Assembly (NCBI GenBank): GCA_029883975.1
Contig: JAOUIL010000001.1
Span: 65,255-129,254, forward strand
Source: Betaproteobacteria bacterium
GTDB taxonomy: Bacteria; Pseudomonadota; Gammaproteobacteria; Burkholderiales; SG8-39
Length of the DNA stretch: 64,000 nucleotides
Direction of reading: 5' to 3'
Position 1 is the stretch's first letter. Every line of letters begins with the position of its first letter. Position numbers and translations under genes: made by a program. A model generated the notes under the pieces. That model saw nothing but the letters and a program-made list of their open reading frames with translations, searched no databases and had not been told where the DNA came from. Below, one piece after another: positions 14,979-16,624 of this stretch.

Positions 14979-15875
14979 TCATGCGGCTGGCGGCTCGGCA
15001 CAGACCTGCTCGTACCGGTAGCGCTGCTTGAGCAGCCCATTGTATTCGAAGACGTCGAGCGTCCGTTCGTAGGCCGCGCGCGTGATCTCCACGTGCGGCG
15101 TCCAGCAGCCGAGCTTCTGGTAGGTGGCGATGCAATCGGCGAGCACGGCTTCGTCGATCTTCGGGAAGTAGGGCTTCTCGGCACGCGCGATCTCCGCGGC
15201 CGGCGCCTCGATCATGTAGACGCGCGTCCTGCGATAGGCGCGCACGAATGCTCCGGCCATGTCGGTCTTCAGCCAGTCGCGCGTCGCCGCGAGGCTGGAG
15301 AAGCCGCAGGGCCCGATCTGCGGGCCAACCTGCGCGACGACGTAGCCGACGCCGTCCGCTTGCAGTTGCTGCGGGTACGGCCCCTGCTGGTGCACGTACT
15401 GCCCCTGGCCCGCGCGGAAGGCCTGGTCGATCTCGGCGGGGCCGCCGGGGCAGACGAGCTTCAGCTTGGCGAAATCGATGCCCGCCCTGTGGCAGGCGTA
15501 CTTGAACATCGCGTGCGGCTGGCCGCCCTTGAAGGTGACCACCTCGGCGCCTTCGAGCTTCTCCCAGGCGAAAGCGGGATCGGCCTTGCGCGCCGTGAGA
15601 AAGAATCCGTCCATCTCGTTTACCTGCGCGAAATGCACCGCCTGCGGCGTCTTGCCCTCGTTGAGCGATGTGAAACCCTGGCTGAGGGCGGACTGCACGA
15701 CGTGCGCCGAGCCGTCCTGCAGCGCGGCAAGGGCCGACACGCCCGGGGGCGACACCGACCACTCCGGCTCGAGGCCCTCGGCCTTGAGGAAGCCGCCCGA
15801 CATCGCCGAGATGAGCGGCGAGTAGAACGCGGAAAACAACGTGAACTGGATGCGGATCTTTTCCAAGTCGCTCAC
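14979..15875 (-). CDS. NMT1/THI5-like substrate-binding-fold protein without an evident signal peptide
   Basis: 298 aa; IQFTLFSAFYSPLISAMSGGFLKAEGLEPEW... family-like pattern; N-terminus MSDLEKIRIQFT lacks a leader. Confidence 0.75.
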   Translation of the reverse strand: MSDLEKIRIQFTLFSAFYSPLISAMSGGFLKAEGLEPEWSVSPPGVSALAALQDGSAHVVQSALSQGFTSLNEGKTPQAVHFAQVNEMDGFFLTARKADPAFAWEKLEGAEVVTFKGGQPHAMFKYACHRAGIDFAKLKLVCPGGPAEIDQAFRAGQGQYVHQQGPYPQQLQADGVGYVVAQVGPQIGPCGFSSLAATRDWLKTDMAGAFVRAYRRTRVYMIEAPAAEIARAEKPYFPKIDEAVLADCIATYQKLGCWTPHVEITRAAYERTLDVFEYNGLLKQRYRYEQVCAEPPAA

Positions 15876-15921: not shown

Positions 15922-16624
15922 TCAGTCCGGGCGCAGATCCCAGAAAGGCGAGTTGCCGCTCACCTGCAGAAGGCGCTGCACGAATTCCGGCACCGTCTCT
16001 GGCAGCGTGGAGACATAGTCCGGGCGCAGACGGTTCCGATGCCGCGGCGTGCTCATGACCCGCATGGCGTCGGAGGGTCAATATTCCCGCCTCGGTTCCC
16101 GCCTTGAACTCGGGCCACTTCTTCACGTGCTCTTTCGACCGAAAGAGATTCATGTGGCTTCAGGCGAAGGGCAGGTTGCCGTACCACTTCTTGATCGGCA
16201 AATCGACATAGAAGTGGATGTCGCCCGGATCCGCCCGCTGGATCTCGCCGTCGAGGATGTCGACGCGCAACGGCTCGCCGCAGTCCAGGCAAGGCGCGTC
16301 GACCGTCACGACCTTGCCCGGAAAAACCCAGGTCATGGCGAGCGACTCCAGCCCGCACTGGGCGAACCAGCGCTGCGCGCCGCCCACGGATATGCGGTAT
16401 TGCGTAGGCAGATTGTTGAACGGCGCAAACGAGGCGATCAGATCCGTTCCCGGGAACAGCCAGTTGGGGAGGCGGGCCGCCATGAGCTCGTGCAGGCGGC
16501 GCCTGCCCTCCTCGACGGGGATGCCGAACTCGGCGGCGATCTCGGTGAAATGCGGCGCCTGGCCCCGCGCCACGAACACCGACAGGATGTAATGATAGGT
16601 CTCGTCCAGAGGGTCCGCCGCCAT
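15922..16624 (-). CDS. Organomercurial lyase (MerB)-family protein; in-frame TGA (16160..16162) at the catalytic Cys position (putative selenocysteine); apparent 1-nt frameshift near 16078
   Basis: RWFAQCGLESL / APCLDCGEPLRVDILDGEIQRADPGDIHFYVDLP align to MerB; the frame continues across TGA into SHMNLFRSKEHVKKWPEFKAGTEAGIL, then in a shifted frame PSDAMRVMSTPRHRNRLRPDYVSTLPETVPEFVQRLLQVSGNSPFWDLRPD*. Confidence 0.7.
16114..16158 (-). promoter_or_regulatory. Putative bacterial SECIS-like stem-loop downstream of the in-frame TGA
   Basis: CUCUUUC-GGUC-GAAAGAG (16147..16130), perfect 7 bp; outer GCCAC(16158..16154)/GUGGC(16118..16114); first loop G at +20 nt from the UGA. Confidence 0.6.

Follow-up and report, generated by a model that had tools for sequence, protein, structure and literature searches.

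An in-frame UGA followed by a conserved hairpin in a MerB-like gene points to a family of predicted selenoproteins with up to two selenocysteines

The hairpin that follows an in-frame UGA codon in a MerB-like gene within the 64,000-nucleotide stretch of betaproteobacterial DNA analysed here (hereafter, the window) is very probably a bSECIS element. In this reading, which rests on sequence comparison, the UGA would specify a selenocysteine (Sec155) at the place of Cys159 in a protein of the MerB superfamily, and a typical member of the family is predicted to have a Sec/Glu/Sec active site, with Cys at the first site in the window copy. At the level of the family, we regard the bSECIS identification as correct with high confidence. 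Incorporation of Sec itself is inferred, there being no expression or protein data.

On the minus strand, the MerB-like open reading frame (ORF) terminates at the TGA at 16162-16160 unless this codon is read through. Read-through with an unchanged frame yields U-SHMNLFRSKEHVKKWPEFKAGTEAGILTL, beyond which homology resumes in another frame (DAMRVMSTPRHRNRLRPDYVSTL...FWDLRPD*, with the stop at 15922). The read-through product matches the Pfam MerB family (PF03243; E=1.1e-15; 58.2 bits, above the gathering cut-off of 27), as do all 13 family members tested (E<=0.001), and MerB2 and MerB of the PDB are matched at the sequence level as well. The structure of the product was predicted with a mean pLDDT of 81, and in a Foldseek search with this model, ranks 1-11 were all occupied by PDB MerB chains (best E 3.4e-8; TM about 0.6), MerB structures being the only ones with E below 0.001. 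In the alignment to MerB, the UGA coincides with the catalytic Cys159, Cys90 with Cys96, and Glu93 with Asp99, that is, with the three residues that are essential in MerB (PMC8261052, PMC4525700). The Cys96/Asp99/Cys159 triad of MerB proper is not met, given Cys90, Glu93 and a predicted Sec155 in the window and, by prediction, Sec/Glu/Sec in most of the relatives. The scores with the MerB organomercurial lyase models NF033555 and NF009710 (22.8 and 28.8 bits) are likewise short of the respective cut-offs (200 and 193). Downstream of the MerB-like gene, also on the minus strand, lies an ORF (14979-15875) that by eye has the look of an NMT1/SsuA-type ABC substrate-binding protein; it was not found conserved near the loci of the relatives.

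Table 1. Features of the MerB-like locus, with positions counted from the first letter of the window
Feature	Position	Strand	Basis
MerB-like gene with an in-frame TGA inside (ATG 16624 to TGA 15922, 703 nt)	15922..16624	-	Pfam, Foldseek, frame analysis
TGC codon, Cys90, MerB Cys96 position (TGA in most relatives)	16355..16357	-	codon alignment
GAG codon, Glu93, MerB Asp99 position	16346..16348	-	alignments
Putative decayed remnant of the first SECIS, loop CATGA, 3/6 pairs left	16327..16343	-	hairpin comparison
UGA codon, predicted to be read as selenocysteine, residue 155, MerB catalytic Cys159 position	16160..16162	-	aligned TGA in relatives, MerB alignment
Possible outer helices GCCAC/GTGGC and CACATG/CACGTG, window-specific	16114..16158	-	in MFE fold, not conserved
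Putative bSECIS apical hairpin, 7-bp stem CTCTTTC/GAAAGAG, loop GGTC	16130..16147	-	sequence, conservation, fold
Frameshift site, CTCC-GAC-GCC compared with CTC-GCC-GAC-GCC in L038 (2 nt fewer)	16072..16075	-	L038 comparison, frame analysis

The sequence-only reading of this locus had described a perfect 7-bp stem with a GGUC loop after the UGA, and both are present (5' arm, 16147-16141; loop, 16140-16137; 3' arm, 16136-16130), with the first G of the loop, as read directly from the sequence, at nucleotide (nt) 20 past the UGA. The bSECIS model includes an apical loop of 3-9 nt with a G in the first two positions, an upper stem of 4-16 bp, a distance of 16-37 nt from the UGA to the loop, and an MFE of at most -7.5 kcal/mol (PMC13188914). 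The window hairpin meets the model in its loop, in its stem, where every pair is formed, in its spacing, with 19 nt between the UGA and the loop, and in the MFE of the 45-nt (-10.2 kcal/mol) and 52-nt (-14.0 kcal/mol) segments; the isolated 30-nt window hairpin alone yields -7.2 kcal/mol. The outer helices that had been proposed around this stem can indeed form, in that GCCAC (16158-16154) can pair with GTGGC (16118-16114) and the 52-nt MFE fold uses both helices, but they are unsupported in the relatives: structure prediction on the 80 aligned segments with RNAalifold retains the 7-bp stem alone, and the ATG/CAC pairing of the outer helix is a consequence of Met and His codons that hardly vary.

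Taken by itself, the fold is only modestly stable, with a z of -1.5 and 15 of 200 shuffles equally stable. When TGA triplets were counted over the whole window, on both strands and in any frame, 12 of the 1136 (1.1%) were followed by a comparable hairpin under a loose criterion (perfect stem of at least 7 bp, loop of 3-8 nt, G in the first two loop positions and loop start at nt 14-26), and 3 of the 1136 (0.26%) under a tight one (loop of 4-5 nt at nt 16-23). The hairpin nevertheless stands far above chance because the stem and the loop recur after the aligned TGA in 80 of the 80 relatives that were kept.

These relatives come from a scan of one genome per species (85,488 species) that produced 293 relatives, of which the best 80 were kept. 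The probe consisted of the window protein and four artificial degenerate copies of it, which limits the relatives that could be seen; the real sequence served as the tblastn query by which the matches were confirmed, and the analysis is confined to real loci. The 80 kept relatives show 48-66% identity and belong to several phyla, the family being best represented in Desulfobacterota, and the aligned codon is TGA in every one of them. In a sample of 248 genomes from the phylum of one carrier, G796, all 18 long family matches (at least 41% identity) contain two TGA codons; some of these loci overlap with the set of 80.

Across the alignment, the 7-bp stem is 98.9% paired, and a tested structure of 10 pairs is 93% paired compared with 40-56% with slid partners. 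Covariation of the stem in relatives, the check that had been suggested from the sequence alone, is borne out by compensatory changes: the column pair 16/33 is CG in 53 sequences and UA in 18, at the pair 21/28 the window and L039 alone have UA where 78 sequences have CG, and the double-changed cells (CG to UA or the reverse) exceed all 500 shuffles. Since the sequences counted are related, comparison with the shuffles offers guidance and should not be taken as a probability. The codons TTT and AAA, which together with AAT had been remarked upon as a sign of selection on the RNA, turn out to carry the partner bases of a single compensatory pair change common to the window and L039. In L130 and L131, the pair 17/32 is changed from UA to GC, which preserves the RNA pair at the cost of an amino-acid change on each arm, and the resulting hairpin, TGCTTCC-GGTC-GGAAGCG, encodes CFRSEA, not LFRSEE. 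Synonymous constraint in the hairpin is near-absolute, with Arg encoded by CGG, Ser by TCG and Phe by TTC in 78 of 79 cases each (99%), compared with 26%, 24% and 54%, respectively, in the rest of the same genes; the bias is also present in low-GC3 genes.

Such conservation bears on the possibility that the gene is a pseudogene in which the TGA arose by ordinary nonsense mutation (for example, from TGC or TGG), the hairpin is a chance occurrence and the frameshift described below is a second disabling mutation. The gene does carry a frameshift, and a comparable hairpin follows about 1% of all TGAs in the window, but the TGA is common to all 80 kept relatives and its hairpin shows compensatory changes, and among the copies read, the frameshift is found in the window copy only. 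We consider this explanation highly improbable.

In homologs of about 25-30% identity, both sites are occupied by Cys. The LFRSEE coding itself favours part of the hairpin, and comparable hairpins occur in some Cys-type homologs because FF(S/R)SEE coding likewise favours one; none of the latter has the CGGTCG loop context. In one Cys/Cys MerB-like homolog, L151 (G863:C549), a hairpin of -14.6 kcal/mol is found at the same place without a UGA, either by chance from FFSSEE coding or as a relic of a former SECIS. Hairpin stability, on which the sequence-only reading had relied as a test, does not discriminate, with some distant Cys-type homologs folding comparably; because such folds arise there in single cases, stability in Cys homologs is a poor test. 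Thermodynamic stability alone as proof of a SECIS is ruled out by the z value and by the equally stable Cys homologs. Two outcomes had been named that would refute a SECIS: a missing stem in Sec-type relatives, which is not the case, and equal stability in Cys-type homologs, which is met in single cases only, such as L151.

The locus L145 (G857:C171), a distant MerB-like ORF at about 25% identity, has one in-frame TGA, aligned to Cys159 (match WCAVD...AYT*PLINFF), with Cys and Asp retained at 96 and 99 and a weaker hairpin after the TGA; it is a possible independent single-Sec MerB. The first homolog searches in the order and phylum of the source genome returned distant MerB only, a plasmid search gave matches of 24-32% identity only, and no matches came from a phage search or from scans of viruses, whether single or mixed queries were used.

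The codon at the MerB Cys96 position is also TGA in 75 of the 80 relatives kept as the best of the 293. This first UGA is followed by a conserved hairpin of its own, with a loop mostly of the GGUCU or AGUUU type that starts at nt 18; in all 75, the stem (15-20/26-31) has 5-6 of 6 pairs and at least one of the first two bases of the loop is G. Six members, namely, the window, L038, L039, L042, L053 and L111, have TGC at this site, and the tree requires three separate changes between UGA and TGC (the root of the tree was not used, and several outgroup rows came from wrong frames). The first-site hairpin is retained in L042, L053 and L111, whereas L039 has lost pairs, and both the window and L038 have lost pairs together with the GG of the loop. 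Cys would have replaced the first Sec in the lineage that comprises these last three, with decay of the corresponding SECIS.

The source genome contains genes of the Sec machinery, including a tRNA-Sec with a UCA anticodon (72.8 bits), SelB (419 bits) beside it, SelA split across two contig ends, and an N-terminal piece of SelD at a contig end; a Sec-form formate dehydrogenase was not found in this genome. All 30 genomes searched, including the source genome, have SelB-type matches, above the cut-off in 25; the weaker matches could come from other translation GTPases where the genome is incomplete. Two criteria for a selenoprotein gene, a UGA aligned to a functional Cys of homologs and Sec machinery in the genome, are met. 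The original bSECIS reading is upheld by the family-wide UGA and hairpin, the compensated stem and this machinery. SelB acting on the hairpin would deliver Sec-tRNA(UCA) to the ribosome, and the UGA would then be decoded as selenocysteine, placing Sec155 where MerB has the metal-binding Cys159, with Cys90 and Glu93 in the places of Cys96 and Asp99.

The window copy reads in frame 0 until about 16073 and in the other frame from there to the stop: after residue 184, about 85 nt past the UGA, a 2-nt deletion relative to L038 shifts the frame of the last 50 codons. Whether this frameshift is a real mutation, which would make the copy a pseudogene, or an assembly error cannot be told apart, and the copy, dead or misassembled, may be inactive despite the family-level SECIS; its descent from an active gene is an inference. 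It is a serious possibility, if one we rate slightly below even, that the Sec family is genuine and the window copy a recently inactivated relic, in which the frameshift is real and the SECIS yields no complete protein. The 2-nt deletion fits such a relic, as does the single copy of the gene in the source genome, but the sequence past the shift is still homologous to L038 and L039 in the other frame, the SECIS is intact, and indel errors occur in MAG assemblies.

The putative bSECIS resembles the E. coli fdhF type in its GG-first 4-nt loop, the length of its stem, the location of the loop and an MFE below the threshold in the two longer segments, and differs in having a GGUC tetraloop on a CUCUUCC stem and an outer stem that is not conserved. 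Among the 119 prokaryotic selenoprotein families in a 2026 review, the only MerB relative is SaoL, with the motif CU and one Sec (PMC13188914). The present family shares with SaoL (NF040728) a Sec within the MerB superfamily but has up to two separated Secs (predicted) and no conserved operon neighbours: no neighbour cluster is common to more than 6 of the 81 loci, and the neighbours of the SAO operon were not met in this clustering, which was done without SAO gene models. With the SaoL model, the family reaches 34 bits where 140 are required, and in 13 relatives SaoL is the best match, but a weak one. A two-Sec MerB is absent from the 2026 inventory (PMC13188914); earlier notice of the family cannot be excluded, the papers behind the SaoL entry being outside the comparison. 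With MerB (PF03243; PDB 3f0o; MerB2, 5c17), the family shares the fold and the catalytic positions Cys96/Cys159, and differs in its predicted Sec at 159 and usually also at 96, Glu for Asp99, a C-terminal extension that usually ends near a PFW motif, and the lack of a mer operon, no mer genes having been seen at the family loci.

In the best-fitting mechanism for the family, which is MerB-like, two chalcogenolates would act as ligands of the metal, and a carboxylate (Glu) would handle the proton. Mercury detoxification by MerB proceeds by a two-cysteine mechanism, and selenium is a stronger mercury ligand than sulfur; because of this, alkyl-mercury is the most likely substrate. Organometal cleavage as such is inferred, without enzyme activity data. 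HgcA (mercury methylation) is above the cut-off in 7 of 13 carriers of the two-UGA gene compared with 68 of the 248 sample genomes (one-sided Fisher p 0.035, or 0.002 with truncated matches included); the test ignores kinship and genome size, and the association hints at mercury only as a lead. Alternatively, the protein could be a MerB-fold selenoprotein that does not cleave C-Hg bonds, that is, a redox enzyme, a metal- or metalloid-binding protein or an enzyme acting on another organometal. Compatible with this are the Glu in place of Asp99, the wide miss of the NCBIfam MerB cut-off, the lack of conserved neighbours of any kind and the extra C-terminal segment, but all three catalytic positions keep the chalcogen-carboxylate-chalcogen pattern and hgcA is enriched in the carriers, so we judge this alternative unlikely without dismissing it. 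Tentatively, and with slightly more doubt against it than belief in it, we propose widespread, so far unlisted di-selenol organometal lyases with the MerB fold and a Sec/Glu/Sec site, in anaerobes many of which methylate mercury, that would act on C-Hg or similar bonds and would have repeatedly undergone partial change to Cys/Glu/Sec, the window copy being one such case.

A natural family with selenium at one or both MerB positions would offer a test of what this element contributes to the cleavage of C-Hg bonds and the release of the product, and the three separate Sec/Cys changes, all at one site while the other remains Sec, provide natural variants for comparing the sites. Because the UGA is taken for a stop, annotation easily turns such genes into truncated fragments that merB surveys pass over, and the family could represent a demethylation gene that has been overlooked in anaerobes that methylate mercury.
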